From the NCBI RefSeq assembly GCF_009834125.1, contig NZ_CP047146.1:4085501-4149500 (forward strand): DNA of 64,000 nt. Reading direction: 5' to 3'. Made by a program: the position numbers and the translations under genes. Each line of letters begins with the position of its first letter. The stretch's first letter is position 1. Of this stretch, positions 654 through 39,650 are shown in pieces. The stretch is from Streptomyces sp. GS7 (GTDB taxonomy: Bacteria; Actinomycetota; Actinomycetes; Streptomycetales; Streptomycetaceae). The notes beneath the pieces were generated by a model. It worked only from the letters and a program-made list of their open reading frames with translations, ran no database searches and was not told the origin of the DNA.

Positions 654-667
654 GGGCCATGCGGCCC
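654..667. promoter_or_regulatory. 14-bp palindrome, DevR/OsdR-like box
   Basis: The sequence is GGGCCATGCGGCCC, with arms GGGCC and GGCCC around a 4-base spacer; the symmetry extends to CA and TG outside. It lies 110 bp upstream of the USP start at 777 and matches the family of boxes seen across the window. Binding by a DevR/OsdR-type regulator is inferred from spacing and gene content. Confidence 0.55.
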
Positions 668-776
668 TGGTGCCATCGACGGCCGGCCCATGCGCCGTGC
701 CACCCGCGCACGAGACGCTGAGGGCGAGGCGGCAGGGCGGGTCGCTGCCGCCGGAAAGCCAGGAGGCGGAGGTCCC

Positions 777-1229
777 ATGAGCGGAGAGTCGAGGGAGCGG
801 GGCCGCATCGTCGTGGGCGTCGACGGCTCGGAATCCTCGGAGGAGGCCCTGCGCTGGGCAGTGCGCCAAGCAGAGCTGACCGACAGCACCGTCGACGCGG
901 TGACGGCATGGGAGTATCCGCCGCTGTACGGATCGATCGGCTGGATCGACGCACCGCAGGAACTGGCCAGCGATATGAAAGCCGCGGCGAGCCAAGCCCT
1001 CGACCATGCCGTCAAGGAGGCCGTGGCGCCGGAGCAACAGGCCCGGATCCACAGCGTCCTGGCGTACGGCACGCCTGCCGCGGTGCTGCTCGACCAGGCA
1101 AGGGGCGCCGATCTGCTGGTGGTCGGCAGCCGCGGTCACGGAGGCTTCGCCGGCGCTCTTCTGGGTTCCGTCGGTCAGCACTGCACCCAGCACGCACCGT
1201 GCCCGGTTGTCGTCGTTCGGCGTCAGTAG
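777..1229 (+). CDS. Universal stress protein, single domain
   Basis: A 150-residue single-domain USP. VVGVDGSESS opens the fold, and the ATP-binding loop GSRGHGGFAGALLGS fits G-2x-G-9x-G-S, so nucleotide binding is expected. These cytoplasmic proteins respond to starvation, redox or hypoxic stress; the individual role is unknown. The ATG at 777 is chosen because AGGAGGCGGAGG lies just before it. The last 7 bases overlap convergently with the USP on the other strand. A close paralogue, now decayed, lies at 39704-40042. A 14-bp regulatory palindrome lies upstream at 654-667. Confidence 0.9.
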   Translation: MSGESRERGRIVVGVDGSESSEEALRWAVRQAELTDSTVDAVTAWEYPPLYGSIGWIDAPQELASDMKAAASQALDHAVKEAVAPEQQARIHSVLAYGTPAAVLLDQARGADLLVVGSRGHGGFAGALLGSVGQHCTQHAPCPVVVVRRQ

Positions 1230-2122
1230 CCGTCTTTCCGTGGCTGCGGTACGGCGATGACGGGACATTGTGCGTAGCGCAGCACGCCCTGGCTCACCGA
1301 GCCGAGCAGCAAGCCGGTGAAGCCGCCGTGCCCGCGGGTTCCCACCACCAGGCACAGGGCGTGGGCCGACGCCTTGGCGAGTTCTTCCACCGGGTGGCCG
1401 AGGACGACCTCGTGGTGCAGTTCCACTTCGGGGTAGGTCGCGGTGCGGCCTGCCACGGTCTCGGACAGGAGGCTGCGGCATTCGCTTTCCACGGTGTGCG
1501 CGTCCCGCCCACGGAACCGCTCCGGGCTCTGTACGTACACGGCTCTCAGGACGGCGCCATGCAGGGCGGCGTGCTGGAAGGCGACGTCCACGGCAGCTGC
1601 GGAGTGCGCGCTGCCGTCGACCCCGACGACGACGTACGACGGGTCCTGGGTGATGTGTTCCGGTTCGGGTACCACGACAACCGGGCAGGAGGCATGAGCC
1701 ATGACGGGTAGCGCGATGGACGCCGAAGTGAAGACTTCCTCCACCCGGCCCAGGTGACGGGAACCCAGTACCACCTCGGCGGCCTCACGGGCCTGTTCCC
1801 GCAGGACCCATGCCGGTGTGCCCTCGGCCAGCAGAGCCGAGAGCGGCACCTGCGGTTGCCGGTCCTCGACGAACGCCACCGCGCCCTGGAGCACGCGCTC
1901 GCCGGCTTCGTGCAGTGCCCGGTTCCACTCCTCCCATGACGGGTGTACTTCAGTCTTCCGGTAGCCACCGGTGGGTACTCCCTCGGCGTGGACCAGGCAC
2001 AGCGGTGTCCGGCGGCGGGCCGCCTCGTCCGCTGCCCAGGCCAGAGCCATCCGCAGGGAAGGGTCCGGGTCCACGCCGACCACGATCGGCCGGCGAACCT
2101 GGTGAACTGCTGCTGAGGCCAT
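1223..2122 (-). CDS. Universal stress protein, tandem domains
   Basis: Two USP domains in about 299 residues. The first begins IVVGVDPDPS and has a degenerate nucleotide loop (GSRHLGRVEEVF). The second begins YVVVGVDGSAHS and keeps a full ATP-binding loop (GTRGHGGFTGLLLGS). Two in-frame ATGs exist, at 2128 and 2122. GGGAG abuts the first but lies six bases before the second, so 2122 is preferred. The gene converges on the USP at 777-1229 with a 7-base overlap. It is probably a ligand-binding stress sensor. Confidence 0.9.
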   Translation of the reverse strand: MASAAVHQVRRPIVVGVDPDPSLRMALAWAADEAARRRTPLCLVHAEGVPTGGYRKTEVHPSWEEWNRALHEAGERVLQGAVAFVEDRQPQVPLSALLAEGTPAWVLREQAREAAEVVLGSRHLGRVEEVFTSASIALPVMAHASCPVVVVPEPEHITQDPSYVVVGVDGSAHSAAAVDVAFQHAALHGAVLRAVYVQSPERFRGRDAHTVESECRSLLSETVAGRTATYPEVELHHEVVLGHPVEELAKASAHALCLVVGTRGHGGFTGLLLGSVSQGVLRYAQCPVIAVPQPRKDGY

Positions 2123-2228
2123 TGCCATCTCCCTGGCTGCATTGTTTCGTCGTCCACTTCCGGAATCGCGCCGTCGACGGGGTACGGCACGACAGCCGGA
2201 CGTGAGCGCGGGAATACACGGAAGAGCC

Positions 2229-2242
2229 GGGCCAGGCGCCCC
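2229..2242. promoter_or_regulatory. Weak 14-bp DevR/OsdR-like box
   Basis: GGGCCAGGCGCCCC matches the recurring palindrome with one mismatched arm position. It lies about 107 bp upstream of the tandem USP start at 2122, within the distance range of the better copies. It is weaker than most copies. Confidence 0.3.
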
Positions 2243-2262
2243 CGCTTCCGACTGGTGACCGT

Positions 2263-2332: not shown

Positions 2333-2578
2333 TCACTGCGCGTGGGCCACGAGAAACCTGGTGCTGTCCCCAAGCGTGGTGAGGTGCGCGGTGTCCTCGT
2401 CATCGATCCGAATGCCGGTGCGCTCTGTGAGGAGCTCGACGAAGCGCAGGAAGTCGAGCGAGTCGATTCCCAACGCATCCCGGAACGTGTCGTTGGGGCC
2501 CAGGGTGGTGATGTCGGCATCCGGTACGACATCGGCCAACGACTCCTTCACGATGTCCAGTGCTTCGTCGTGTTTCAT
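2333..2578 (-). CDS. Acyl carrier protein
   Basis: An 81-residue free-standing acyl carrier protein. The phosphopantetheine attachment site is GIDSLDF, with the modified serine at residue 40. Its ATG overlaps the stop of the E2 gene by four bases (ATGA), so it is translationally coupled as the last gene of the acs-pdhAB-E2 operon. No ketosynthase or acyl-CoA carboxylase lies nearby. Known family role: carrying acyl groups as thioesters. Its role beside a pyruvate dehydrogenase is unknown; receiving an acyl group made by this operon is one inference. Confidence 0.9.
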   Translation of the reverse strand: MKHDEALDIVKESLADVVPDADITTLGPNDTFRDALGIDSLDFLRFVELLTERTGIRIDDEDTAHLTTLGDSTRFLVAHAQ

Positions 2579-3984
2579 AGCTCCTCCGGGTTCTGCAAGA
2601 GGCGGTCGACGGTGGTGAGATAGCGGGCCCCGACGGCACCGTCGGTTGCCCGGTGGTCGGCCGCGAGGGTGGCCGTGGCCACCGGCCGTACGCCGAGCAG
2701 GCCGTTGACCGCCCACGGTCGTTCGACGACCCGGCCGAAGCCCACCAAGGCCACTTGCGGTGGGTAGATCACCCCCAGGACCACCTCCACCCCTTGGTCA
2801 CCGAGGTTGGTGACCGTGATGGTGGGGTCCGACACTTCGGAGCCGCGTAGCCGGCCGTTTCGGGCGCGGTCGACCAGGTCCTTCAGTTCAGCCATCAGCT
2901 CCGGGAGTTCGAGAGCGTCGGCGTTCCGCAGAACAGGGGCGATGAGCCCGCCGCCGCGCAGGGACACCGCCACGCCCAGGCGCACCTCGTCACCGGCGGT
3001 GAAGTGGCCGTCGATCCAATAGCCGTTCAACTCGGGTACCTCTCGGGCCGCCCGGGCCGCGGCTTTGAGCAACAGGGCTGCGGGGAGAAGGCGTTCGCCT
3101 ACGGGGCAGTGGTGGTTGTGCTCGTGCGTCCAGTGCATCGCGGTGGTCATGTCGATGCTCGTGGACAGGTAGTAGTGGGGGATCTCCCGGTTGGCACGGG
3201 CCATCAGACCCGCGATGGCCTCGCGCATCCCTGTCTCCCTCCGGACCGCGGAGGGACGGGCAGGTGCGCTGCCGTCGGACTCGGGCTCGGCGGGTACCGT
3301 CGGGCCGGGAGCCGCCGCGCGGACGTCCGAGGCGCGGACGGTGCCGTCCGCGCCGGCGCCTGTCAGTCCGTGGAGATCGATGCCCAGTTCGCGGGCCAGT
3401 CTCCGCGCGTAGGGAGTGACCCGGGCGGGCGACCGCGCTGCCGCAGCGGTGCGCTGGACATCGGCACGGGTGACACGCCTGCCACGACCCGTCCCGTGGA
3501 CGGTGTCCAGGTCAATGCCCGCCCGCTCGGCGAGGTGCCGGACGAGGGGGCCTTCGTCACCGTGGCCGTGGGGGTGGTCGGCGCGGTGGCGGTCGGTGAG
3601 AGCGGCCGTCGCCGCTGGCGCCGGTTGGGGCGTTGATTTCCGCCGTGGGGATTTCCGTGCCGTCGGTCCTGCCCCCTCTGGCGTCGGCAGGCGGGGGGAT
3701 CGCGTGGGTTTCGCGGGCGCTTCCGGTTTCGTGGGTGTGCCGGCCTCCGCCCTCGGCTCGATCTGTGCGAGCGGCGTGCCCACCGGCACCGTCGTACCCG
3801 GGGGCACGAGCAGCTGCCCGATCCTGCCCGTCTCGAAGCACTCCACCTCGATCGTGGACTTCGCGGTCTCGACGACCGCGACCGGATCGCCTTTGCTAAC
3901 GGGGTCACCGGCCTGCACCAACCACTCCTGCAACGTCCCCTCGTCCATGTCGGCGCCCAGTGACGGCATCGTGAACTCGGCCAT
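2575..3984 (-). CDS. Dihydrolipoamide acyltransferase (E2 of a pyruvate dehydrogenase-type complex)
   Basis: A 469-residue E2. An N-terminal lipoyl domain occupies residues 1-78 with the lipoyl lysine at 42 (ETAKST). A Pro/Lys-rich linker follows, then two E3/E1-binding domains near 147-180 and 190-222, and a catalytic domain from about 250. The active-site motif DHRATDG lies near residue 443. Two peripheral-binding domains in one E2 is unusual; most have one. It follows E1beta with only two bases between and is coupled to the acyl carrier protein gene. No E3 (dihydrolipoamide dehydrogenase) gene lies in the operon, so a housekeeping E3 is presumably shared. The preferred 2-oxo acid is not proven; pyruvate is most likely. 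Confidence 0.9.
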   Translation of the reverse strand: MAEFTMPSLGADMDEGTLQEWLVQAGDPVSKGDPVAVVETAKSTIEVECFETGRIGQLLVPPGTTVPVGTPLAQIEPRAEAGTPTKPEAPAKPTRSPRLPTPEGAGPTARKSPRRKSTPQPAPAATAALTDRHRADHPHGHGDEGPLVRHLAERAGIDLDTVHGTGRGRRVTRADVQRTAAAARSPARVTPYARRLARELGIDLHGLTGAGADGTVRASDVRAAAPGPTVPAEPESDGSAPARPSAVRRETGMREAIAGLMARANREIPHYYLSTSIDMTTAMHWTHEHNHHCPVGERLLPAALLLKAAARAAREVPELNGYWIDGHFTAGDEVRLGVAVSLRGGGLIAPVLRNADALELPELMAELKDLVDRARNGRLRGSEVSDPTITVTNLGDQGVEVVLGVIYPPQVALVGFGRVVERPWAVNGLLGVRPVATATLAADHRATDGAVGARYLTTVDRLLQNPEEL

Positions 3985-3986
3985 CG

Positions 3987-4988
3987 TCAGTCCACCGCCC
4001 GATGCGCGGCCGCGACGATGTCGGCGGTCTGTGGGAGGGCGGCCTGTTCAAGCAGCCGTGCGTACGGGATGGGGACTTCCGCGCTGCACACCCGCTCGAC
4101 CGGCGCGTCCAGTTCGTAGAGCGAGTCCTCGGCGATCCTCGCGGACACCTCCGCGGCGAGGCTGCCGCTGCGCCATGCCTCGTCGATGACCACCGCGCGG
4201 TGCGTCCGCGCCACGGAAGCGGCGATGGCCGCGTCGTCGAGGGGCCGCAGGGTGCGCAGGTCGACGACTTCGGCGTCGATGCCGTCGGCTGCCAGTGCGT
4301 CCGCCGCGGTGAGCGCTTTCGGGAGGGAACCGCCGTAGGTGATCAGGGAGACGGCGGTGCCCGGTCTGCGTATCGCGGCGTGGTCCAGGTCCACGGGGGT
4401 GGTGCGCGGGGCCAGTTCACCGGTGGCGTTGTAGAGGCTGCCGTGTTCGAAGATCAGCACGGGGTCGGGGTCATTCAGTGCCGGGGCGAGCATGTGGCGT
4501 GCGTCCTCGATTGTCGCCGGGGCGAGCACCCGGATCCCCGGGATGTGCGCGTACCACCCTTCGAGGCTGTGCGAGTGCTGGGCCGCGAGCTGCCGGCCGG
4601 CGCCCGTCGTCATGCGGATCACGAGCGGGACGGGCAGCTGACCGCCCGACATGTGCAACAGGGTCGCGGCGTTGTTGAGGATCTGGTCGAGGGCGAGCAG
4701 GCTGAAGTTGACGGTCATGATCTCGACGATCGGCCGCATCCCGTTCAGCGCCGCGCCGATGCCCGCCCCCACGAACGCGGACTCCGACAGCGGAGTATCA
4801 CGGATCCGCTCGGGCCCGAACTCCTCCAGCAGGCCGAGGCTCACGCCGAAGCAGCCGCCGTACCGGCCCACGTCCTCGCCCATGAGGAAGACCCGGTCGT
4901 CGGCGCGCAGTGCCTCGCGCAGGGCCTCACGCATCGCCTCGCGGTATGTCGTCTTCCGCTCGTCCGGCCGGTCGGTGACCATGGTCAC
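3987..4988 (-). CDS. Pyruvate dehydrogenase E1 component, beta subunit
   Basis: A 333-residue transketolase-type beta subunit. [10 protein letters not shown] near the N-terminus, the [11 protein letters not shown] segment and EIMTVNF are hallmarks of the two-chain E1 of pyruvate or branched-chain dehydrogenases. The C-terminal half carries the transketolase C domain ([17 protein letters not shown]). With the alpha subunit it decarboxylates the 2-oxo acid using thiamine diphosphate and acylates the E2 lipoyl group. Its start overlaps the alpha subunit stop by four bases, indicating coupled 1:1 synthesis. Confidence 0.92.
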
Positions 4989-6009
4989 CTCACCTCCGAG
5001 GGAGCACTGGTGACATACCGCAACAGGTTGCCGACCGGCTCCTCCGGCGCCCGCTCGGCCGCGTCGACGGCGGCGTCGATCTCTTCGGTGATCCGGCGTT
5101 CGATCTCGGCGAGCTTCGCCTCGACCGGCTCGGCGTCCTCACGCATGCGGTCCGTGAGCCGGGCAATCGGGTCGCGCGTCTTCCACTGCTCGATCTCCGC
5201 CTTGTCGCGGTAGCGGTCCGGGTCGTACATGGAGTGGGCGCGGAAGCGGTAGGTGCGTATTTCGAGGAAGCGCGGTCCGCCGCCGCCCCGGATGCTTTCG
5301 GTGGCCCGGCGGGCGGCCCGCTCGACGGCTTCGACGTCCATGCCGTCCACCGCCCACGCCGCCATGCCGTAGGAGGCGGCACGCAGGGCCAGGTCGGTCT
5401 GCGCCTCGTGCCGTTGCAGGGCCGTGCCCATGGCGTACAGGTTGTTCTCGCACACGAACAGCAGCGGCAGACCCCACAGGGCGGCCAGGTTCGCCGTCTC
5501 GTGGAACTCGCCCTCGGCGTAGGCGCCGTCGCCGAAGAAGCAGCAGGTGACACGGAAATGCCCGCGCATGCGGTCGGCCAGCGCGAGCCCCGCGGCCAGC
5601 GGGAGTCCGCCGGCGACGATCGCGTTGCCGCCGTAGAAGCGGCGGCCGGTGTCGAAGAGGTGCATGGACCCGCCGCGGCCCCCGCTGCACCCGGTGGCCT
5701 TGCCGTACATCTCGGCCATGACGGCCTCGGCCGGGAGACCGCGGGCCAGCGCGTGGCCGTGCTCGCGGTAGGTGGAGACCACCGCGTCCTCGGCGGTCAG
5801 GGCTTCGTTGACGCCGACGGCGACGGCCTCTTCACCGATGTAGAGGTGGACGAAGCCGCGGATCTTGGCGGCGCTGTACAGCTCGACGCAGCGCTCCTCG
5901 AAGCGCCGGATACGCAGCATGGCGTGCAGCAGTTCGCCGCGGTGTTCGGCCCGGGCCGCCTCGGTCGCACCGATCGTGGCCTTGCGCTTGCGGGTGCCGC
6001 GGACGGGGG

Positions 6010-6013
<4 letters not shown>
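4985..6013 (-). CDS. Pyruvate dehydrogenase E1 component, alpha subunit
   Basis: A 342-residue alpha subunit with the thiamine diphosphate/Mg2+ motif beginning [12 protein letters not shown] and ending CENN. The phosphorylation-loop region [14 protein letters not shown] is typical of Pdh[12 protein letters not shown] matches the active-site channel of pyruvate-type E1. Start and stop both overlap their neighbours by four bases (ATGA). The operon order acs, E1alpha, E1beta, E2, acp suggests that acetyl-CoA formation from acetate and pyruvate is co-induced under stress. Confidence 0.93.
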
Positions 6014-7803
<1,790 letters not shown>

Positions 7804-7865
7804 CGCGGTTCCCTCCGGCGCCTCGCGCCATCTCCAGGATCACGGAACCCGCCGCTGCGCGCATG

Positions 7866-7879
7866 GGGCCGAAGGGCCT
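7866..7879. promoter_or_regulatory. DevR/OsdR-like box upstream of the acs-pdh operon
   Basis: GGGCCGAAGGGCCT is almost identical to the box at 18304. It sits 63-76 bp upstream of the acs-like start at 7803, between that gene and the stop of the next minus-strand gene, so it most likely serves the acs-pdh-acp operon. Confidence 0.6.
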
Positions 7880-7959
7880 GGGGCAGGGGCCGGCCAGACC
7901 GCCAGTGGGATGTGCCCTCAGGGCGCTGTGCCCACCGGCTCTGACGGATGTCGTACCCG

Positions 7960-8418
7960 TCACGGGACGTCGGCCAGCGACGCCGTGCCCCGTTCGTTGC
8001 CGCTGTGTGGGTGCCCTTTCAAGAGCCGACCGGTCACCAGCTCGGGGGCGATCCGGATGAAGGCGTCCTCCGCCACGGCCACCCACGAGCGGAGCCCGAC
8101 CGCACGCAGCCGTTCCTGCTCCCTCCGGTCAGCGACCAGCGTGGCTCGCCCGATCACGATGACGCTCCAGCCCGACTGCGCGGCCTCGTCGAACCAGTCC
8201 GCTTCGAAAGCCACGACGGCACCGTCGACGGCGTGTGCCATACGTGACATGGCCGACGTCCGGAGTACCACTGCGTGATCTTGATCCAGAGAGAAGTTGA
8301 CCGGCAGGACGGCGGGCAGCGCCTCGTGCGTGTACACGATGCGCCCGATGGGCACCAGCGTCAGAAAGCGCAGGCACTCCTGCTGGTCCAATTGCCGAAG
8401 GCCGTCCTCCCACTGCAT
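7960..8418 (-). CDS. Pyridoxamine 5'-phosphate oxidase-fold (flavin-binding split barrel) protein
   Basis: 152 residues of the PNPOx-like split-barrel family. Residues 1-25 (LDQQECLRFL, IGRIVY) and the following AVLPVNFSLD segment match small flavin- or F420-binding members, and GWSVIVIGRATLV is the typical central strand. Such proteins bind FMN, F420 or heme and carry out or sense redox reactions; the cofactor cannot be read from the sequence. A box at 8455-8468 lies immediately upstream. A related fold is fused to an XRE domain at 32134-32856. Confidence 0.82.
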   Translation of the reverse strand: MQWEDGLRQLDQQECLRFLTLVPIGRIVYTHEALPAVLPVNFSLDQDHAVVLRTSAMSRMAHAVDGAVVAFEADWFDEAAQSGWSVIVIGRATLVADRREQERLRAVGLRSWVAVAEDAFIRIAPELVTGRLLKGHPHSGNERGTASLADVP

Positions 8419-8454
8419 GCCCTCATCGTGTGCGCACCGTGCTGGCGCGGCGTT

Positions 8455-8468
8455 GGGCCGATGGTCCT
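8455..8468. promoter_or_regulatory. DevR/OsdR-like box
   Basis: GGGCCGATGGTCCT closely resembles the box at 39637 (AGGCCGATGGCCCT). It lies 37-50 bp upstream of the flavin-barrel gene start at 8418. The 8419-8743 intergenic region holds this box, the one at 8642 and no gene that I can support. Confidence 0.5.
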
Positions 8469-8641
8469 CGCCTTTAGGGCAGGTCGGGCCGTCCCCGCGG
8501 GGCCGTACGCCGCACGCCTGGCCTTGTCCACGTCGGCCGGCACCTCAAGCGGTGATCCTCTACACGGCGACCGGCTGCGTCTTGGCACTCGCCTTTCGCC
8601 AGCTTGTCCACTGCCCGTTCGCCGTTGCTCCCCGCTCCTTT

Positions 8642-8655
8642 GGGCCAAGGGGCCC
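8642..8655. promoter_or_regulatory. DevR/OsdR-like box, perfect arms
   Basis: GGGCCAAGGGGCCC has perfect GGGCC and GGCCC arms with a 4-base spacer, 88-101 bp upstream of the USP start at 8744. Confidence 0.6.
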
Positions 8656-8743
8656 TGTCGCCGGCCGAACGGCGACAGCACGCTGGAAGGGAGGGAACGT
8701 GCTCGTTTCCCGCTCCGACTCGCGGCACGAGGGAGGCAACCGT

Positions 8744-9616
8744 ATGCACCGCGTCGTCACTGTGGGCCTCGACGGTTCGGTCGAGAGCCTGGCGGCAGCA
8801 CGCTGGGCCGCCGAGGAAGCCGCCCGTCGCCGGCTCACGCTGCGCCTGCTGCACGCCTGGCCCATGCTCGCGCCGGAGGCCGTGGAGATGCCTCCCGAAG
8901 CGGATCAGAACTACTGGGCGAAGCTGATCGTGCACGACGCCCACGCGGAAATCCGCGAGCACTACCCGGATCTCCCCGTCGTCGACGACCTGGTCGCATC
9001 GGACGCCGAGACCGCCCTGCTCAGCGCGTCGGCGCAGTCCCAGCTGCTGGTGCTCGGATCACGCGGACTTTCCGCCGCCGCAGGCTTCTTCCTGGGCGAC
9101 ACCGCTATGGAGATCGTGGCCCGGGCGGAACGGCCGGTGGCCCTGGTGCGCGCCGGCATGCGCCCGGTCCCGGATTCCGCTCGCCGTGCCGGCGGAGTGG
9201 TGGTGGTAGGGGTCAGCCTGCATGGGCGGTGCGACGACTTGTTGGAGTTCGCCTTCGAGTCCGCTGCCGTGCGCGATGTGCCCCTGCACGCCGTTCACGG
9301 AAGAAGCCTGCCGGTGGAGACGTATGCGCCGTGGGCCATGAATCCCGACGTCATCGAAGAGATCACGGAGGAAGCCCGGCGACGCCTGGACGAGGCACTC
9401 CGCTCGTGGTGCGAAAAGTTCCCCGGTGTGCGGGTGGTCGACAGCGTACTGCTGCAGAGTCCCGCCCGGGCCGTCGCACAAGCGGCCACGGCCGCCGATC
9501 TGCTGGTGCTCGGACGACGCAGGCAACGGCCCACCCTGGCACCACGGCTGGGCAATGTCGCGCACGCCGCGGCACACCACGCGTCGTGCCCCGTCGTCAT
9601 CGTTCCCCACGACTGA
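8744..9616 (+). CDS. Universal stress protein, tandem domains
   Basis: 290 residues with two USP domains. Domain 1 starts VVTVGLDGSVES and has a near-consensus loop (GSRGLSAAAGFFLGD). Domain 2 starts VVVVGVSLHGR and its loop is altered (GRRRQRPTLAPRLGN), so it probably does not bind ATP in the usual way. The ATG at 8744 follows GAGGGAGG. Paralogues of the same subtype lie at 32912-33775 and 27960-28811. Upstream is a perfect regulatory palindrome. Confidence 0.9.
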   Translation: MHRVVTVGLDGSVESLAAARWAAEEAARRRLTLRLLHAWPMLAPEAVEMPPEADQNYWAKLIVHDAHAEIREHYPDLPVVDDLVASDAETALLSASAQSQLLVLGSRGLSAAAGFFLGDTAMEIVARAERPVALVRAGMRPVPDSARRAGGVVVVGVSLHGRCDDLLEFAFESAAVRDVPLHAVHGRSLPVETYAPWAMNPDVIEEITEEARRRLDEALRSWCEKFPGVRVVDSVLLQSPARAVAQAATAADLLVLGRRRQRPTLAPRLGNVAHAAAHHASCPVVIVPHD

Positions 9617-10463: not shown

Positions 10464-10671
10464 GAGGTTCCTCCCTCCGTACGAGAGCGACGGGACTCGC
10501 GCGGGCGTGGAACGTCGTACGGCGCCGCTCATTCGGAGCTTCGCCCTGTGTTCCAGTATTCCGCTTTCGTGGGCTCGCGCAGCCAGTCGAAGTCGAAGGG
10601 CGCGAGCCCCTTCTCCCGCGCCCGAGCCGGTCGGGCGGGGCCGGAATCCGGTCAGATCGACCCCGGGCCCA

Positions 10672-10685
10672 GGGCCGGAGGGCCC
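10672..10685. promoter_or_regulatory. DevR/OsdR-like box, perfect arms
   Basis: GGGCCGGAGGGCCC lies 60-73 bp upstream of the stomatin-like start. The box is in the divergent region shared with the gene starting at 10463. Confidence 0.6.
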
Positions 10686-10744
10686 AAGCGTCAACGAACC
10701 GAAGCCCGGCACTGTGGAGCACGAGCCTCACGGAGGTGGGCGCC

Positions 10745-29097: not shown

Positions 29098-29191
29098 TGC
29101 CGTCACCGCCTCTGCGCGCGCACCACGATGTCCTGTGCCGAACGTGCCACAGGCGCCCTGTCTGCGTTATGGGGCGAGTTGCCCCGAGAAA

Positions 29192-29205: not shown

Positions 29206-29480
29206 ATGGGATGGGACCGGACGGAACTCGTGCGCGGCGCCTCCGTGCGGTTCACTGAAAGTGACAGGGAGGACGGCAGACGCGGAGGAGCGGAGCGAGA
29301 CCGCGCACCGCGCAATCAGGGCCCGCGAGAAGTGGGCGGTTCTCCTTGCCGTCGGATGCCGGCTCGCCTGCGCGGGCCGGCCCGTTCATGACCCGCAGAC
29401 AGGGCGAACGGACGCCGCAACCGGATGACTTGGGCCGCGGCGCTCCTGACGCGGCACGGTCGGCAACCAGGAGAGCCGCC

Positions 29481-31559: not shown

Positions 31560-31636
31560 CGGGCGGGGACGACCGGCCCACAGCCCCGCCGGCGCTGGCG
31601 CGCGACAGTGGGTTGGACCCTGTGAGGAGGCACGTG

Positions 31637-32065
31637 ATGCGGGTCCGCGACGTGATGCGTGTGCCGGTGGTCACGGTTGCTCCCGATGCCACCTTGCGGG
31701 ACACCGCGCGGTTGATGCAGCAGCGCACCGTCGGGTGCGTGGTCGTGGTGTCCGGCGAGGTGGTCCTCGGCATGGTCACCGACCGGGACCTGGCCGTGCG
31801 CGGTCTGGGCGAGGAGCGGAGCGCGACCGCGCCGGTCCGCGACGTGATGACGGTGCCGGTCCATGCCGTCCTTCCGGGCGACGACGTGGATGCCGCGTAC
31901 CGCACCATGTGCCGCTCGGCCGTCCGCCGGCTCCCTGTCCTGGACAGGGGGCGGCTCGTGGGTGTGGTGGCATTGGACGACCTGCTGATGGACGTCTCCC
32001 GGCGGCTGTCCGAACTGCTCGGCGCGGTCTCGTGGTGCGTCCTGGCGGAACCGCCCATCGGGTAG
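31637..32065 (+). CDS. Tandem CBS-domain protein
   Basis: 142 residues consisting of one CBS pair: RDVMRVPVVTVAPDATLRD with VLGMVTDRDLAVRG, then RDVMTVPVHAVLPGDDVD with RRLPVLDRGRLVGVVALDDLL. CBS pairs bind AMP, ATP or related ligands and signal energy state. The intact second motif shows what the frameshifted CBS gene at 15830 has lost. GAGGAGG lies ahead of the ATG. Confidence 0.9.
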   Translation: MRVRDVMRVPVVTVAPDATLRDTARLMQQRTVGCVVVVSGEVVLGMVTDRDLAVRGLGEERSATAPVRDVMTVPVHAVLPGDDVDAAYRTMCRSAVRRLPVLDRGRLVGVVALDDLLMDVSRRLSELLGAVSWCVLAEPPIG

Positions 32066-32911: not shown

Positions 32912-33775
32912 TTACTCGTGCGGCACGATCGCGACGGGGCAGGGGGCGTGGTGGACGGCCGCATGGACGACGTGGCCGATGCGGGGGACCGCGTGGCCGA
33001 TGTGCCGGCGGCCGACGATCAGCAGCTGCGCAGCCGCGGCGCCGTGCAGGAGGGCCGGCGCCGGACTCTCCATCACCACCTGCTCCTCGACCCGCACGTC
33101 CCGGAACTTCTCCTGCCACGGGCGCAGCGCCTCGAACAGTTCCTCGCGTGCGATCCGGGCAGCTTCTTCCGCGGCGGCCCGTTCCACGGCACCGCCCCGG
33201 TCGTAGGCGAACGGCGGCAGGTTCCTGCCGTGCACGGCGCGGAGCGGGACGGCTCGTCGGGCCGCGGTCTCGAAGGCGAAGGCCAGCAGCCCCTCGCTGG
33301 GGGCGTGCAGGCTGACACCGACCGCGACGCTGTTGCCGCCCTCGGTCGCCGGGCCGTCCTGGCGGGCCCGCACCAGGACGACCGGAACCGCGACCCGTGG
33401 CACCAGGTCGAGTCCGGTCTCCCCCAGCGCGAAGCGCGCCGCCGGTCCCAGCCCCCGCGACCCCAGGACCAGCAGATCCGCTTGCCCGGCGGCTTCGACC
33501 AGGGCTTCCAGCGGCTCTTCGCGCACCAGAGCCACGTCCACGGGGAGCCCGGGCTGCGCCGACTCGACCGCGGACCTGGCCTCCTCGATGATCGGGTCCG
33601 GCCAATGCGGCACTTCCGGCGCCCAGGGTGCGCCCCGCGGCCTCGCCGTGAGGGGTTGCCAGGCGGTCAGGAGCCGCAGGCGGGACTGCCGCAACTGCGC
33701 CTCGTGCGCCGCCCACCGCGCGGCCGCCAGGGCCTGGGGCGTACCGTCCACACCGACGGTGATGACGTTCTTCAT
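32912..33775 (-). CDS. Universal stress protein, tandem domains
   Basis: 287 residues. Domain 1 (ITVGVDGTPQA) has the loop GSRGLGPAARFALGE and domain 2 (VAVGVSLHAPS) the loop GRRHIGHAVPRIGH. Neither has the full G-2x-G-9x-G-S/T, so ATP binding is doubtful. It is most like the protein at 8744-9616. Its start overlaps the CBS-BON stop by four bases, so the two are translationally coupled. Confidence 0.9.
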   Translation of the reverse strand: MKNVITVGVDGTPQALAAARWAAHEAQLRQSRLRLLTAWQPLTARPRGAPWAPEVPHWPDPIIEEARSAVESAQPGLPVDVALVREEPLEALVEAAGQADLLVLGSRGLGPAARFALGETGLDLVPRVAVPVVLVRARQDGPATEGGNSVAVGVSLHAPSEGLLAFAFETAARRAVPLRAVHGRNLPPFAYDRGGAVERAAAEEAARIAREELFEALRPWQEKFRDVRVEEQVVMESPAPALLHGAAAAQLLIVGRRHIGHAVPRIGHVVHAAVHHAPCPVAIVPHE

Positions 33776-34479
33776 GAGGACGACCGGCTTTCTGCTGCTC
33801 GTCCTTCGTCTGTCCCGCCAGACGGGCCGCCGCCGGCCGGCTCCGGCTTCAGGTCCTCGGATACCGACACCACGCCGTCAAGGCTCGCGCACATCCGCAC
33901 CAGCACGGGAACGAGCAGCAGGTCGGTGACCGTGCCGTGCAGGGCGACCTGTCCCCGATTGACCTCGGCGGTCATGCCCGCGGCACCCAGGCGTGCAGTG
34001 CGTCCGATGACCTCGCGGGTGATCTCCTCGCGGATCGCGTCGTCCTTGCGCAGGAAGACGCGCAGCAGGTCGCCGCGGCTGACGATGCCCAGCAGGATGT
34101 CCGTCTCGTCGACCACGGGCAGCCGCTTGACCTGCTGTACCTCCATCAGTCGCGCCGCCTCCACCACCGTCCAGTCGGGATGGGCGCACACCGCCGGGGC
34201 CGACATCAGCTCACCGGCGGTGCGGCCCTCCGCCCGCGCCCGCTCCCAGGCCTCCAGGTGCGGCAGCGGGGTCCTGCCGGACAGATCGGACCGGTCGGCG
34301 GCCTTGCGCAGCAGATCGGCCTCCGAGACGACGCCGGCCGGCCTGCCGAGGCTGTCGAGCACCGGTACGGCACTCACCGCGTTGTCGGCGAGGGTCTGCG
34401 CGATCTCCTTGAACGGAGTGTCGAGGCGCACGCTCACGACCTTGCGGGTCATCAGCTCACCTATCGTGCGGTGCTCCAT
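33772..34479 (-). CDS. CBS-pair protein with C-terminal BON domain
   Basis: 235 residues. Two CBS motifs (GELMTRKVVSVRLDTPFKEI to GVVSEADLLRKA; AGELMSAPAVCAHPDWTVVE to LLGIVSRGDLLRVF, given as end points) are followed by a BON domain (about 160-215: EVIGRTARLGAAGMTAEVNRG). BON domains bind lipids or mediate contacts; CBS pairs sense nucleotides. The ATG at 34479 follows AAGGAGCCGGAG. It heads the CBS-BON, USP, XRE-barrel group. Confidence 0.9.
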   Translation of the reverse strand: MEHRTIGELMTRKVVSVRLDTPFKEIAQTLADNAVSAVPVLDSLGRPAGVVSEADLLRKAADRSDLSGRTPLPHLEAWERARAEGRTAGELMSAPAVCAHPDWTVVEAARLMEVQQVKRLPVVDETDILLGIVSRGDLLRVFLRKDDAIREEITREVIGRTARLGAAGMTAEVNRGQVALHGTVTDLLLVPVLVRMCASLDGVVSVSEDLKPEPAGGGPSGGTDEGRAAESRSSS

Positions 34480-34556
34480 CTCCGGCTCCTTCCGCCGCGG
34501 CGGCCGGTGGTGCGGCCACACCTCAAGCGTGGCCGGGGCGGTGCACGTTCCGGCAT

Positions 34557-34631
34557 GAGCCGGTCGGCCCCACCCCCCCAGCCGGCCGTCCCTGGAAAGC
34601 CGACCGGTCCCCGTCCAGGGCTCTATGGCCC
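34557..34631. promoter_or_regulatory. Cluster of three DevR/OsdR-like boxes in a divergent promoter region
   Basis: GAGCCGGTCGGCCC (34557-34570), AAGCCGACCGGTCC (34597-34610) and GGGCTCTATGGCCC (34618-34631). The first is the exact reverse complement of the box at 39614 and lies 78-91 bp before the CBS-BON start. The last lies 102-115 bp before the nitroreductase start. Centres are 40 and 21 bp apart, close to whole helical turns. Confidence 0.6.
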
Positions 34632-34732: not shown

Positions 34733-35725
34733 GTGCTCACCCACCCCACCCTCGACGACACTGCCGTAGCGTCGCTGGTGGCCGACGCCACCGCCGCGCC
34801 TTCGATGCACAACGCCCAGCCGTGGCACTTCGACTACTCCCGGGCGTCGCGCACCATGCTTCTCACCGCCGACCTGGATCGCGCGATGCCGCAGGCCGAC
34901 CCCAGCACCCGGGGGCTGCACCTGGGCTGCGGCGCGGCCCTGCTGAACCTGCGCGTCGCCGCCGCGCATGCCGGCCACCGCACGGCAACCACTTTGCTGC
35001 CGGCTCCCCAGACTCCTGGGCTCCTTGCGGCCGTGCGCTTCGACGTACCGCACGAGCCCCTGGACACAGCCCTCTCCGACCTCTGTTCCGCCATCCCCGA
35101 CCGGCACACCAGCCGGTACCCCTTCACCGAACGGCGGATCCCGGAAAGCCTCCGCACTGCCCTCGTCGAGGCCGCGTCCCAGGAAGGGGCCCAGCTGGCG
35201 TTCCTGACCACCCCGCACCGCGAGGCGGTGCTCGACCTCGTCCTGCACGCCGAGGGGTACGACCGCATGGACGACGGCCGGGAAGTCGAACAGCGTCGAT
35301 GGACCCACGACGCCTCCGCTGAATCGCCTGTGGAGGGCATCCCCGAATACGCCTTCGGTCCTGCCAAACGTGGTGGTGCGGCCCCCGTACGGGACTTCGC
35401 CGGCCGGCGCGCGGTTCCCGGCCGTGCCTACGCGGACTTCGAGAAACGGCCGCAACTGGCCTCCCTCAGCACCACCCGCGACGGCCCCGCCGACTGGCTC
35501 CGCGCCGGCCAGGCACTGGAACGGGTCCTGCTCCTCGCCACCTGCCAGGGGCTCGTGAGTTCCTTTGCCACGCAGCCGCTGGAGTGGCCCGACCTGCGCT
35601 GGCTGCTGCGCGAGCCGGTCTCCGGCACCGGCTACGTCCAGATGATCCTCCGCCTGGGATACGGCCCCCAGGGGCCGCACACCCCGCGCCGGCCGGTGGA
35701 GGAGGTCCTGACGATCACGTCGTGA
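34733..35725 (+). CDS. Acg-like nitroreductase-family protein
   Basis: 330 residues from a GTG with GGGAGG upstream. APSMHNAQPWHF near the N-terminus is the FMN-site signature of the nitroreductase fold, and the two-half architecture with DRHTSRYPFTERR in the middle matches the Acg (Rv2032) family of M. tuberculosis, known as a dormancy-regulon product. Acg proteins bind FMN but often lack usual nitroreductase activity, so sequestration of FMN is one suggested role. It diverges from the CBS-BON gene across three regulatory boxes. Confidence 0.88.
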   Translation: MLTHPTLDDTAVASLVADATAAPSMHNAQPWHFDYSRASRTMLLTADLDRAMPQADPSTRGLHLGCGAALLNLRVAAAHAGHRTATTLLPAPQTPGLLAAVRFDVPHEPLDTALSDLCSAIPDRHTSRYPFTERRIPESLRTALVEAASQEGAQLAFLTTPHREAVLDLVLHAEGYDRMDDGREVEQRRWTHDASAESPVEGIPEYAFGPAKRGGAAPVRDFAGRRAVPGRAYADFEKRPQLASLSTTRDGPADWLRAGQALERVLLLATCQGLVSSFATQPLEWPDLRWLLREPVSGTGYVQMILRLGYGPQGPHTPRRPVEEVLTITS

Positions 35726-35775: not shown

Positions 35776-38115
35776 TCAGGAGGAGAGCGAGAAGTAGCTC
35801 TCCTCCTCCTGGCTGAAATGGAGACGCAGCACGGTGTGAAGCCCGTACAACGACGCCCGGAGATCGTCGAGTTGCTCCGGCAGCAGGTCACCCGTCGCGT
35901 CGGCGAGCGCGAGATGCGTGGCGATGCGCTGGGCGAGGCGTGCGATCTCGGTGTGAGCGCGGCTCATGGTCTCCGTGGCGTCCGGGCCGCCGAACTGCGC
36001 GTTGAGCGCGGGGTAGAGCTGGTGCTCCTCGGCGTACTCGTGCGGGAGCAGCCGCTCGGTGAGCAGCCGGTCGACCTGGTGGACGGCCGCCAGGGCACGC
36101 GGACCGGGGTCGGTGGAGAGCAGGCCGGCCGCCTCACGGATCGCGTCCAAGGTGCCGCGCAGGGACTCGTGTTCGGCGGCGAAGCGATGGATGAGGCGCT
36201 CGGCCGCGGGTTCGAGGGGCGGGCCGCCGGTGCCGCGGGCCGGCAGCACGACGCGGAGCGCGTTGAGGATGACGGCCACGTCGATGGCCTCCTGGAGGAG
36301 CGCACCGGCGGCCGGTGGCAGCAGTCCCAGCAGCGCCGCGACCATCGCCGCCAGCGACATCACCATGCCGCCGGCCGCGCTCTGCACCGCGATCCGACGG
36401 GTGCGCACGGCGATGTCCATCGCGTCGGCGAGCCGGGCGACCCGGTCGGTGGTGAGCACGATGTCGGCGGCCTCTGATGCCGAGGTCGCGCCGCGTGCCC
36501 CCATGGCGACACCGACGTCCGCGGCGGCCAGGGCCGGAGCGTCGTTGACACCGTCGCCGACCATCACGGTGACGGCGCGCCCACACTCCTCCCTCACGGC
36601 CCGGACCTTGTCGGCGGGCAGTTGCCCGGCACGGACGTCGTCCAGCCCCAGGACCGTCCCCACCTGGCGGGCCGGTTCGGGCCGGTCCCCGGTGAGCAGC
36701 AGCAGCCTGGCCAGCCCGGCCGCCCGCAGCCGCCGGACGGTGCGTGGCGCGTCCCGGCGCAGCGGGTCGTGCAGCAGGACGGCACCGGTGAGCGTGCCGT
36801 CGACCGTGACCCAGGCGACCGTGGCCCCGTCGAGGAGAGCGCGGTTGTCCACGGTCCGGGCCCAGCGGGGAAGCTCCGCCGATGCCAGATCGGTCTTCCC
36901 GACGGCGATCCGGCAGCCGTCGACCGTGCCGGTGACACCGCGCCCCGGCTCCTCGGTGACATCGGTGGGCGGGGACAGGACCAGGCCGCGGTCGCGTGCC
37001 TCCCGGGTGATCGCCTCGGCCAGGATGTGCACCGAGACCTGGTCGACCGAGGCGGCCAGCCGCAGGACGTCGGTAGGGGAGGGGCCGCCGAACGCCGTGG
37101 CCACTTCCAGGACCCGGGGCCGTCCCGCGGTGAGCGTGCCGGTCTTGTCGATCACCAGGGTGCGAGCCCGGCCCAGCGATTCCAGTGCCCGGCCGTCCCG
37201 CACGATCACACCCCGCCGGGCCGCTCGCGACATGCCGGAGACGACGGCCACCGGCACCGCCAGCAGCAGCGGGCAGGGCGTTGCCACGACCAGCACGGCC
37301 ACCGCCCGGACGGCCTCACCGCCCACCCCCCAGGCCACGCCCGCCAAGCTCAGCGAGAGCGGCAGAAACCAGGCGGCGTACCGTTCCGCGAGACGCACCG
37401 CAGGCGCCTTCTCCGCACCCGCCTGCCCGGCCAGCCGCACGATCTCCGCGTAGGTGCTGTCCCGCGCGGTCGCGATGGCCGTCACCTCGAAGACCCCGCC
37501 GGCGTTGACCACGCCACTGCGTACACCGTCGCCGGTCCGCCGCTCCACCTGCGCCGACTCACCGGTGAGCACCGACTCGTCCAGGGTCGCGGCGCCGGTC
37601 ACGACTGTTCCGTCGACCGGAACCACCTCACCCGTGCCGACCACGATCACATCGCCGACGGCGACCTCGTCCAGGGCCACGGTGGCGATCTCCCGGCCGC
37701 GTCGGCGCCGTGCCGAGCGCGGGGCGTGCTCCAGCAGGGCACGCAGATCGCGGGAGGCCCGACGGGTAGCCGTGGCCTCCAGCGTCCGTCCGGTCGCCAG
37801 CATCACGGCGACCAGCGCACCGGCCAAGTATTCGCCCACTGCCAGAGTTCCGGCCAGTGCCAGCACCGCGATCAGATCGACGCCCGCCCGCCCCTGCCGC
37901 AGCGCGCGAACGACCCAGACCACGGAGGGGACGACGGCCAGCACCGTTCCGGCCGCCCAGCACGCATCGGCAACGTCCGGCCGGCCGGCCGACCACGCGA
38001 CGCTGCCGCAGACCAGTGCGGCCGTCGTCGCGATCAGCAACACCGTTGCGAGCGGACGCCGATCCTCTGCGGTCCGTGCTGCCTGGTCTCGTCCCCGGCC
38101 TCCGACGTACCGCAC
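35776..38115 (-). CDS. Heavy-metal P-type ATPase with C-terminal hemerythrin domain
   Basis: 779 residues from a GTG preceded by GGAGGG. Actuator TGES is at 184-187, the phosphorylated aspartate at 323 (DKTGTLT), and the hinge GDGVNDAPAL at 520-529. The transmembrane metal site reads ATPCPLLL (CPL at 281-283) instead of the common CPC/CPH, and the P1B HP motif is HI at 363-364. There is no N-terminal metal-binding domain. After the last helix, residues about 638-779 form a hemerythrin-like four-helix domain with His at 649, 692, 698, 721, 760 and 766 and acidic residues near 770, suited to a di-iron or O2/NO-sensing site. The cargo metal is unknown. Confidence 0.9.
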   Translation of the reverse strand: MRYVGGRGRDQAARTAEDRRPLATVLLIATTAALVCGSVAWSAGRPDVADACWAAGTVLAVVPSVVWVVRALRQGRAGVDLIAVLALAGTLAVGEYLAGALVAVMLATGRTLEATATRRASRDLRALLEHAPRSARRRRGREIATVALDEVAVGDVIVVGTGEVVPVDGTVVTGAATLDESVLTGESAQVERRTGDGVRSGVVNAGGVFEVTAIATARDSTYAEIVRLAGQAGAEKAPAVRLAERYAAWFLPLSLSLAGVAWGVGGEAVRAVAVLVVATPCPLLLAVPVAVVSGMSRAARRGVIVRDGRALESLGRARTLVIDKTGTLTAGRPRVLEVATAFGGPSPTDVLRLAASVDQVSVHILAEAITREARDRGLVLSPPTDVTEEPGRGVTGTVDGCRIAVGKTDLASAELPRWARTVDNRALLDGATVAWVTVDGTLTGAVLLHDPLRRDAPRTVRRLRAAGLARLLLLTGDRPEPARQVGTVLGLDDVRAGQLPADKVRAVREECGRAVTVMVGDGVNDAPALAAADVGVAMGARGATSASEAADIVLTTDRVARLADAMDIAVRTRRIAVQSAAGGMVMSLAAMVAALLGLLPPAAGALLQEAIDVAVILNALRVVLPARGTGGPPLEPAAERLIHRFAAEHESLRGTLDAIREAAGLLSTDPGPRALAAVHQVDRLLTERLLPHEYAEEHQLYPALNAQFGGPDATETMSRAHTEIARLAQRIATHLALADATGDLLPEQLDDLRASLYGLHTVLRLHFSQEEESYFSLSS

Positions 38116-38226
38116 GGCAGCCCTCCGGTTCTCCGGGGATCTTGACGGTGCCCCGGGTGCCGAGCTCGTGGACCGGTACCCGGCTCGTATGCCATCCACG
38201 TCACCACGGCGCCCGGTACCGCGCCA

Positions 38227-38240
38227 GTGCCGGACGGTCC
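38227..38240. promoter_or_regulatory. DevR/OsdR-like box upstream of the metal ATPase
   Basis: GTGCCGGACGGTCC, 112-125 bp upstream of the P-type ATPase start. A better copy, GGGCCGTCCGGTCC, lies at 38460-38473 in the same intergenic region. Confidence 0.45.
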
Positions 38241-38595
38241 CTCACCAGGCTGCCCCGGAACTCCGGCTCTGCTGCCAAGCAGGACCGCGCCCGTCTCCTC
38301 AGGGCCAGCGGGTTCTCTCGGCCGCTTCGATCGGTCCGTGGAACTGGGGTGGGCCGTCCCAGGAGACGCCCGCCCCAGCAGCGGAGGACCATTCCGCGTA
38401 CATGCCATCTTCGGCGACGCGGACCATCGCGCCAAGGTCCGGACGGGGACACGAGGAGAGGGCCGTCCGGTCCCTCCCGGCACAGGGCACGGCGGGCGAC
38501 AGCCGACGCACGCCAGTCGCGCAGTGCCCGAGTCATCCGCTTGGTCTGTGGGTGCACCACACCGCGATATGCGGGTAGCAGGACGGCCCGCGCTC
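38241..38595. other. Intergenic region, one box and one doubtful small frame
   Basis: Between the metal ATPase and the next USP, both on the minus strand. It contains the box GGGCCGTCCGGTCC at 38460-38473. A minus-strand frame, 38299-38427, would give a 42-residue peptide beginning MVRVAEDGMYAEW; it has natural-looking composition but no ribosome site or known family. It might be a small protein or a relic. Confidence 0.35.
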
Positions 38596-39483
38596 TCACC
38601 CGCCGCTCGGCTGTACGGGGACGATCGCGATGGTGCACGGCGCCTGGCGGAGCATCGCATGGTTGACGGGCCCGAGTTGGGGGCCGAGCGGGTCCCGACG
38701 TCGGCGGGCGCCGAGCACCAGCAGTTCCGCGTTCGCCGCGGCCCGGAGAAGCGCCGGATGCGCCCGACCTTCGACGATGATGCGGCGTACCGGCACGCCT
38801 GGGTGTCCCGCGACGGACCGTGCCAGGACGTCGTCCAGCCACTGTTCGGCTCGCTGACCACCCTGAGCCCGGTGATCGGCGGAGAGACCGACGCGCGGTG
38901 CGGCGTGTTCCCCGTCGTGGCGCATACGGGCGTGCAGCACGGTGACCCCGCAGCCGCGCAGTGCCGCTTCCATGAACGCGAAATCCGCCGCCTCCGGTGT
39001 CCGCTCCGGCGCTCCGAGTCCGAGCAGTACCCACCTTCCTCTCGTGGGGACTTCACCAGCGCCATCTCGCACTACGACCACCGGGCAGTGGGCACGGGCC
39101 GCGACGGTCACACTCACCGACCCCAGCAGGACCCCGGAGAGGCCGTGCCCCCGGCTGCCGACCACGACCATGGCGGCGCGGTCGCTCTCGTCGACCAGCG
39201 CGTAGACCGGGTCCTCGTCCCGGACCACGGCGGACACGGCTACCTCCGGCTGCCGCAACCGGGCCCGCTCCTCGGCGGAGGCCGCCACGCTCCTGGCCGC
39301 GGCATGTCGCCGCGCCTCCGGATACCGTCCGACGGACGGCGCGGAATCCTCGTACTGCACCCACAACGACGCATGCAGAAGGTGGAGTGGGCAGCCGCGG
39401 AGGGCTGCCTCGTCGGCGGCCCAGTCCACCGCGCGCAGCGCGTCGTCCGAACCGTCGGTGCCGACGACCAGTGGTGCATCCAT
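38596..39483 (-). CDS. Universal stress protein, tandem domains
   Basis: 295 residues from the ATG at 39483 (MDAPLVVGTDGSDD). Domain 1 has a complete ATP loop (GSRGHGLSGVLLGS); domain 2 has a degenerate one (GARRRRDPLGPQLGP). It is the intact relative of the relic at 154-526: both share the MxxPLVVGxDG start and RDEDPVY. It stands head-to-head with a decayed USP at 39704, mirroring the left pair, where the opposite partner is intact. Confidence 0.9.
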   Translation of the reverse strand: MDAPLVVGTDGSDDALRAVDWAADEAALRGCPLHLLHASLWVQYEDSAPSVGRYPEARRHAAARSVAASAEERARLRQPEVAVSAVVRDEDPVYALVDESDRAAMVVVGSRGHGLSGVLLGSVSVTVAARAHCPVVVVRDGAGEVPTRGRWVLLGLGAPERTPEAADFAFMEAALRGCGVTVLHARMRHDGEHAAPRVGLSADHRAQGGQRAEQWLDDVLARSVAGHPGVPVRRIIVEGRAHPALLRAAANAELLVLGARRRRDPLGPQLGPVNHAMLRQAPCTIAIVPVQPSGG

Positions 39484-39594
39484 CCGCCTCACCGCCTCAT
39501 CGGGGTCAACCGGGATCGAGTCCTTTCGAGGCTGCGCGGATCCCGGATACGGCACCCAACGCCTATCGTCGGGCGGCTGCCACGTCCGGTACAG

Positions 39595-39650
39595 AGGCCG
39601 AACGGCTCCGCGGGGGCCGACCGGCTCCGCTGCCGTAGGCCGATGGCCCT
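39595..39650. promoter_or_regulatory. Three tandem DevR/OsdR-like boxes between divergent USP genes
   Basis: AGGCCGAACGGCTC (39595-39608), GGGCCGACCGGCTC (39614-39627) and AGGCCGATGGCCCT (39637-39650). Spacings of 19 and 23 bp between starts are near two helical turns, as for cooperatively bound response-regulator sites. They could serve the USP on either side. Confidence 0.6.

Follow-up and report, generated by a model that had tools for sequence, protein, structure and literature searches.

The closest described counterparts of the system considered here are OsdR (SCO0204) with its kinase OsdK in Streptomyces coelicolor, and DevR/DosR with DosT/DevS in Mycobacterium tuberculosis. A consensus OsdR site, AGGGCCGATCGGCCCT, has been published together with a table of predicted sites (PMC5069765, Urem et al. 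2016). This study concerns a palindrome, GGGCC-N4-GGCCC and close variants, that recurs before genes at positions 4,085,501-4,149,500 of the one-contig, 9.07-Mb genome of strain GS7; this stretch of 64,000 nucleotides is called the window below. The strain appears to belong to the genus Streptomyces; by V-type ATPase subunit A, S. rhizoryzae (83% identity) is the closest of its named relatives. The palindromes are very probably binding sites of an OsdR/DevR (DosR)-type response regulator of the NarL family, predicted to activate an island of genes as one regulon. Box, regulator and regulon type have all been described before. A V-type ATPase as a candidate target of OsdR appears to be new.

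The GS7 island resembles the OsdR system of S. coelicolor in its box and in several of its genes. The palindrome is the same, and the published 16-mer (PMC5069765) contains the 14-mer of the original prediction, which was made from the letters of the window and had guessed at a box of OsdR/DevR type. Among the sites given for S. coelicolor, boxes likewise stand before genes for universal stress proteins (USPs), pyridoxamine-phosphate oxidase, nitroreductase and Crp-like proteins, and before the regulator itself (PMC5069765). The GS7 system differs in that its boxes also precede an operon for an acetate-CoA ligase, a 2-oxoacid dehydrogenase and an acyl carrier protein, a Band7 gene, a gene for a P-type ATPase with hemerythrin domain, and a series of DUF1918, USP and V-ATPase genes. 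It also has two regulator pairs, and the regulator of one of them (locus L081) lies about 457 kb from the window. The main text of PMC5069765 makes no mention of ATPase, ATP synthase, hydrogenase, pyruvate dehydrogenase or nicotinate. In S. lividans, genes for nicotinate phosphoribosyltransferase (NAPRT), CBS-type proteins, USPs, nitroreductase and pyridoxamine-phosphate oxidase rise with osdR (PMC6302529, Table 2). The passages on that OsdR-correlated group name no V-type ATPase, and the text uses the word ATPase once, for SecA (PMC6302529). The original prediction called several of the downstream genes homologues of dormancy-regulon genes, and several island genes do belong to kinds that PMC6302529 gives for the OsdR set of S. 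coelicolor and S. lividans: USP, CBS, pyridoxamine-phosphate oxidase, nitroreductase, NAPRT and Crp-like.

A general Pfam scan that covered 40 proteins of the window and 10 of its left flank, and no others of the genome, found no nar nitrate reductase genes among them. The solved structures most similar to the GS7 regulators and kinase are those of DevR and DosT/DevS of M. tuberculosis. The two systems differ in gene content and in the box, since the arms GGGCC/GGCCC of GS7 are unlike the core of the mycobacterial DevR box. Both have primary and secondary boxes, with the 22-bp spacing of the tgs1-Rv3131 probe described in PMC3029386.

Distribution of the boxes

Strong matches to published OsdR sites are concentrated in the promoter gaps of the island. 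Loose matches to the 14-mer were undiscriminating: with up to two mismatches the window holds no more of them than expected by chance (210 observed, shuffle mean 244), and the exact 14-mer, with 138 occurrences genome-wide, is rarer than its reversed control (306). A symmetric 16-bp matrix was therefore built from 25 of the S. coelicolor OsdR sites printed in PMC5069765 and used mostly with a threshold of at least 9. Its hits start 1 bp before the corresponding 14-mer positions, so that site 654 becomes 653. Genes were called by a codon-usage script, and every site count rests on these calls. The genome background consisted of 16 evenly spaced 20-kb pieces (320 kb) of the same genome.

In positions 1-40,100 there are 18 intergenic matches scoring at least 9 and none in coding sequence, while the rest of the window has three intergenic and two coding matches. 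The original prediction had named equal frequency in coding DNA, or in shuffled GC-matched DNA, as its refutation. The comparison with coding DNA does not refute it; in shuffled DNA the loose 14-mer is not exceeded by the window. First-order Markov resampling of the intergenic pieces (300 runs) gave a mean of 1.0 and a maximum of 5 matches, compared to 16 counted in the same way. The background holds 39 matches (0.12 per kb) versus the 18 in 40.1 kb of the window. When upstream regions of up to 300 bp are considered, a match of at least 9 is found in 16 of 19 in the window and in four of 191 in the background (P=1e-17), and one of at least 10 in 13/19 and 0/191. In the 64 kb to the right of the window only one of 39 upstream regions has a match of at least 9. 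Counting each whole promoter gap once, 11 of 14 gaps in 1-40.1 kb have a site of at least 9, versus six of 141 in the background (P=2e-10), three of 29 to the right, and five of 11 in the left flank. Site 654 lies in a gap that starts to the left of the window, and this gap is included in the left-flank count. Overall, the enrichment resides in the strong matches and in their position.

The sites listed in the original prediction agree well with this picture, with some corrections. All 17 positions are the palindrome or a variant of it, and all 17 fall outside called genes, where nearly all had been expected to. The distance to the nearest downstream start codon, given as about 40-125 bp, is 37-154 bp for 16 of the sites, while 38460 is 345 bp away. 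Four sites rather than five have perfect 5-bp GGGCC/GGCCC arms (654, 8642, 10672 and 18304). Two of the 17 are weak by the matrix (8642, 6.3, and 31546, 6.2), and six sites of at least 9 had been overlooked (8476, 13433, 15672, 15797, 18197 and 31565; Table 1).

The cluster extends leftwards beyond site 654, and stronger sites are found there, at -15911 (19.6), -14033 (18.9) and -10757 (15.1). They precede PPK2/CBS-BON, USP/CBS-like and Hsp20 genes, respectively, and a box at -9773 (10.0) precedes an Rv2632c-like gene. The boxed island spans about -16 kb to +40 kb, or about 56 kb.

Box pairs preferentially have a spacing of 22 bp. Around intergenic boxes of at least 9 in the GS7 genome, secondary boxes of at least 5 occur at 8/68 positions for 22 bp, and other spacings from 16 to 60 bp have at most two. 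The same count in relatives is 15/98 positions at 22 bp and at most four at any other spacing. Expressed as unique pairs, 6/18 in GS7 and 11/29 in the relatives are exactly 22 bp apart, and the next spacing has two and three, respectively. Some promoters of the relatives are shared by descent, so these pairs are not all independent. The primary and secondary sites of the tgs1-Rv3131 probe (PMC3029386) are also 22 bp apart, with matrix scores of 8.4 and -4.3. The pairing appears to be new for Streptomyces, within a literature check that covered DevR papers and part of PMC5069765; this is a weaker claim than the novelty of the ATPase.

Regulators and kinases

Two OsdR/OsdK-like pairs are encoded elsewhere in the genome, at about 3.628 Mb (L081) and 5.768 Mb (L135). 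Kinase matches, strong boxes and a protein search led to them. An OsdR-like regulator is encoded neither in the window nor within 40 kb on either side; tblastn of both L081 proteins against this region found only a LuxR-type DNA-binding stretch (56237-56467). The L081 regulator (11664-12371, 235 amino acids) has DevR (3c3w) as its best PDB match with 226 bits, followed by VraR with 138, and it retains the stretch AEKTVKN. Its gene faces a GAF histidine kinase gene (10038-11645), whose best matches are GAF domains of the DosT/DevS type (E 1.8e-47 to 1.3e-43), including PDB 2vzw, a structure of DosT. The L081 regulator gene is preceded, at 154 bp, by a perfect box, AGGGCCGAACGGCCCT (21.3). The L135 regulator (9985-10692) also matches DevR 3c3w best, with 262 bits versus 142 for VraR, and is preceded by boxes of 11.0 and 13.0. 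The two kinases are 56% identical. The L135 pair stands beside a NAPRT-like and a USP-like gene, named by the appearance of their sequences, in a second small dormancy-type cluster (L135 5813-14781, at 5.76 Mb).

Across the genomes, 32 of 38 distinct OsdR-like genes have a site of at least 9 within 300 bp upstream (41 rows less five repeats, plus L109, which has one, and L133, which does not). This is expected, since the published motif was derived from osdR promoters. OsdR-like genes occur in 139 of 150 genomes and are so widespread that their presence is not discriminating.

The V/A-type ATPase operon

An operon for a V/A-type ATPase lies within the boxed island. Pfam and NCBIfam recognize subunits A, B, D, F, I and K, with F barely above the cutoff. 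Subunits C and E are named by gene order, which is kept in relatives, and the 159-amino-acid protein probably has a stator position. Walker A is intact in subunit A, the GGFGTGKT columns being invariant in 13 sequences. Subunit I (25052-26482) is short, with 476 amino acids, while nine matching family models have 608-701 positions.

The ATPase is uncommon, and a box accompanies it in most of the Streptomycetaceae loci. A full-length subunit A orthologue (E<1e-200) is present in 13 of 150 sampled Streptomyces genomes including GS7. A second draw found one in six genomes from five other genera of Streptomycetaceae (7/101 with GS7). There are 17 Streptomyces loci, of which L097 and L164 do not include the operon start, leaving 15. 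A box of at least 9 precedes the ATPase, directly or by way of co-directional USP or DUF1918 genes, in 12 of these 15 and in four of the six loci from other genera, which were fetched afterwards as a fresh test. Direct boxes occur in nine Streptomyces loci (L093-L096 and L099-L103) with scores of 14.4-21.8, and in L231 (18.4), L236 (16.5) and L235 (10.7) of the other genera. In GS7 (13.4), L104 (11.7) and L146 (13.5) the ATPase genes follow a co-directional USP or DUF1918-USP, and the box precedes these genes, as it precedes a USP gene in L234 (11.3). An alignment of ten direct regions, including the boxless L098, has 21 invariant columns out of 225, which include GCCG and a single G from the box; conservation in these upstream regions comprises the box but extends beyond it.

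Other island genes are often nearby. OsdR-like genes share the same 20 kb with the ATPase in L100, L101 and L102, and L102 also has a homologue of the hemerythrin-ATPase, split into two adjacent gene calls, with the V-ATPase on one side of it and an OsdK/OsdR-like pair on the other. Outside the family, 13 loci were compared (Rhodococcus, Nocardia, Dactylosporangium, Actinoallomurus, Streptosporangium, Demequina, Arthrobacter and Actinomadura). Eight of them (L147-L149, L151, L153, L155, L157 and L162) hold a gene that best matches OsdK, a hydrogenase gene or NAPRT by blastp against the GS7 island set, where the OsdK label is loose, OsdK being the only kinase in that set. The gene neighbourhood is shared more widely than the box. 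A V-type ATPase module has been reported in Nocardia seriolae (PMC5336288). No paper linking a V-type ATPase with OsdR/DevR was found among titles and abstract starts of the open-licence literature, in a search that did not cover the wordings 'A-type' and 'vacuolar'.

Proposed mechanism and alternative explanations

The box type suggested originally is supported by the published consensus, the two DevR-like regulators with kinases, the 22-bp pairs and the OsdR-type genes, all of which point to a putative OsdR regulon. We infer binding, the signal, activation, a single ATPase transcript and the role of the ATPase as follows. Following the published model, OsdK, a haem-GAF sensor kinase of DosT/DevS type, would phosphorylate OsdR upon a change in oxygen or redox state. 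Dimers of OsdR~P would bind the boxes, which often form pairs with a 22-bp spacing and lie up to about 150 bp from start codons, and would activate the island as a single regulon. Judging by the boxes, its predicted members are USPs, CBS proteins, PPK2, Hsp20, the Rv2632c-like protein and the acetate-CoA ligase/2-oxoacid dehydrogenase/acyl carrier protein operon. Pyridoxamine-phosphate oxidase, Band7, NAPRT, nitroreductase, the hemerythrin P-type ATPase, and DUF1918-USP followed by the V/A-type ATPase would also belong. With respiration stalled, this ATPase would perhaps act as an ATP-driven ion pump and so hold membrane potential and pH. NAPRT, the hydrogenase, PPK2 and the ligase/dehydrogenase may maintain NAD, redox balance and acyl-CoA.

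A broader proposal is made tentatively. In the minority of Streptomyces with a V/A-type ATPase, this enzyme may be a conserved part of the OsdR/DevR dormancy regulon; in other actinobacteria its genes often neighbour those for DevS-like kinases, [NiFe] hydrogenase or NAPRT. With the ligase/dehydrogenase, NAD salvage, PPK2 and hydrogenase, it could make up a module for energy maintenance that is switched by oxygen, with OsdR~P exchanging respiration-driven membrane energization for ATP-driven ion pumping in dormancy. The regulon would bring some 56 kb of a Streptomyces chromosome under the control of a single known switch linked to oxygen, and the paired-box geometry of a mycobacterial dormancy promoter recurs in Streptomyces. 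The second rotary ATPase is a candidate target for which no report was found. How the membrane is energized in non-growing actinobacteria is an old question, and this gives a testable candidate in genetically workable soil bacteria.

Several observations weigh against a single OsdR regulon that includes the ATPase. The gap before the first ATPase gene (27866-27959) has no box, with a best score of -0.9, and the 300 bp upstream of this gene contain no site of at least 9. The inclusion of an ATPase in the regulon, as originally predicted, agrees with a box before the co-directional DUF1918-USP genes, and it depends on an assumed long DUF1918-USP-ATPase transcript. Five of the 21 ATPase loci have no box of at least 9: L098, L145 and L154 in Streptomyces, the last being that of S. 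rhizoryzae, the closest relative, and L233 (only 8.1) and L232 (none) in other genera. Outside Streptomycetaceae the matrix, which is derived from Streptomyces, finds a close box in only two of the 13 loci (L153 and L155), and for this reason a pan-actinobacterial box is not claimed. The USP gene 1223-2122 and FtsH (13535-15346) have no site of at least 9 within 300 bp upstream, the hydrogenase cluster has no box of its own (best score 2.5 in the preceding gap), and site 13433 lies between convergent genes. There are two regulator pairs, of which L135 is closer to DevR and has weaker boxes, and either may supply the acting regulator.

The observations on the ATPase allow a narrower, fairly unlikely reading, in which the boxes are genuine while the ATPase and the ligase/dehydrogenase operon are mere neighbours, and OsdR acts on the adjoining short stress genes (USP, DUF1918, CBS). 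In the window the nearest strong box precedes DUF1918, at a distance of 1.3 kb from the first ATPase gene, and every one of the 12 direct boxes of the relatives has a CBS-domain gene on its other side in divergent orientation, so each may serve the CBS gene, the ATPase or both. The direct boxes are nevertheless only 65-96 bp from the ATPase start, and DevR is known to use shared divergent promoters, with tgs1-Rv3131 and narK2-Rv1738 as described examples (PMC3029386, PMC7018068). Where USP or DUF1918-USP genes are co-directionally ahead of the ATPase, the box precedes them, and in L093, L095 and L096 the neighbouring ligase/dehydrogenase operon has paired boxes of its own (11.1-19.6), in the co-directional gap ahead of it.

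A NarL-family regulator other than OsdR might read the palindrome, which is improbable. The genome encodes three OsdR-like regulators at E<=1e-60 (L081, L135 and one more) and has 44 HisKA_3 matches; none of the 35 exact GGGCCGNNCGGCCC sites of the genome is in the window, and several window sites are asymmetric at the centre. Against this, the matrix made from published OsdR sites scores the window sites high, and the island genes are of known OsdR types. It is extremely unlikely that the palindromes are GC-rich chance matches or hairpins of terminators or attenuators. In favour of this reading, loose matches do not exceed shuffles, and the mutually complementary boxes 29191/29213 form an 11-pair stem (29195-29224) followed by a T-rich stretch, which is a terminator-like match. 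This pair is, however, the only one of five terminator-like sites in 1-40,000 that overlaps a listed box, convergent gaps hold only one of 17 sites of at least 9, and the concentration of strong sites in promoter gaps contradicts both terminators and chance. An OsdR/DevR-type regulator is the preferred explanation for the boxes.

Genes of the island

Table 1. Boxes, genes and operons of the window and its left flank (positions relative to the window start)
Feature	Position	Strand	Score	Genes and remarks
[NiFe] hydrogenase cluster	-9718 to -4392			HycI protease, 4Fe-4S protein, NAD-binding subunit, small subunit, [NiFe] large subunit
Box	653-668		12.5	110 bp before USP gene 777-1229
Ligase/dehydrogenase operon	2333-7803	-		acetate--CoA ligase family (6010-7803), 2-oxoacid dehydrogenase E1a, E1b, E2, acyl carrier protein (by Pfam)
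Box	7865-7880		10.1	63 bp before ligase/dehydrogenase operon; weak neighbour 7886 (6.4)
Box	8454-8469		9.2	37 bp before pyridoxamine-phosphate oxidase-like gene 7960-8418
Box	8476-8491		10.1	exactly 22 bp from 8454
Perfect-arm palindrome	8641-8656		6.3 (low)	89 bp before USP-like gene 8744-9616
Box	10671-10686		12.9	between divergent SpoIIAA-like 9696-10463 and Band7/SPFH 10745-11410
Box	13433-13448		11.6	convergent-gene gap beside probably broken beta-CASP gene; target not clear
Box	15672-15687		9.1	centre 150 bp before CBS protein 15830-16201, 333 bp before FtsH
Box	15797-15812		9.5	centre 25 bp before CBS protein 15830-16201
Box	18197-18212		9.9	upstream of SHOCT-like protein 18389-18652
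Box, perfect arms	18303-18318		14.6	72 bp before SHOCT-like protein 18389-18652
Box	19754-19769		15.9	59 bp before gene 19121-19696 (no Pfam match); window maximum
V/A-type ATPase operon	20169-27865	-		159-aa protein, C, I, K, F, E, A, B, D
USP-like and DUF1918	27960-28811, 28849-29097	-		co-directional, directly upstream of ATPase genes; gaps 94 and 37 bp
Box	29191-29206		13.4	95 bp before DUF1918; proposed control point of DUF1918-USP-ATPase transcript
Secondary box	29213-29228		7.0	exactly 22 bp from 29191
Box	31565-31580		13.8	between divergent NAPRT 29971-31335 and CBS protein 31637-32065
Box	34556-34571		9.9	between divergent CBS-BON 33772-34479 and nitroreductase-like 34733-35725
Further boxes	34596, 34617		6.8, 8.3	CBS-BON/nitroreductase gap
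Box	38226-38241		10.6	112 bp before P-type ATPase with hemerythrin domain 35776-38115
Box	38459-38474		14.2	345 bp before P-type ATPase gene 35776-38115
Box	39594-39609		9.7	112 bp before USP 38596-39483
Box	39613-39628		11.5	131 bp before USP 38596-39483

Two metabolic functions named in the original prediction can be placed in Table 1. A 2-oxoacid dehydrogenase operon is indeed boxed, with 'pyruvate' being a reading of its substrate at the level of Pfam; its ligase gene exceeds the cutoff of NCBIfam NF003313. The NAD salvage gene, NAPRT, borders the strong box 31565, although the weak 31546 had been listed. The hemerythrin domain of the P-type heavy-metal ATPase is C-terminal, and the closest relative of this protein in the relatives sampled has at most 73% identity.

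The beta-CASP/RMMBL gene 12092-13430, presumably RNase J-like, appears to be broken. Its N-terminal metallo-beta-lactamase domain was not matched by Pfam, and matches are found in an open frame that extends under FtsH on the opposite strand. The block of PPK2, CBS and acyl-CoA-synthetase-like genes left of the window (L002 3616-8530, -16384 to -11470) has a near copy at 3.70 Mb (L083 8953-13998), which carries boxes of 17.8 and 16.0. PPK2 has 275 amino acids in the copy and 128 left of the window, where it matches only the first half of the profile.

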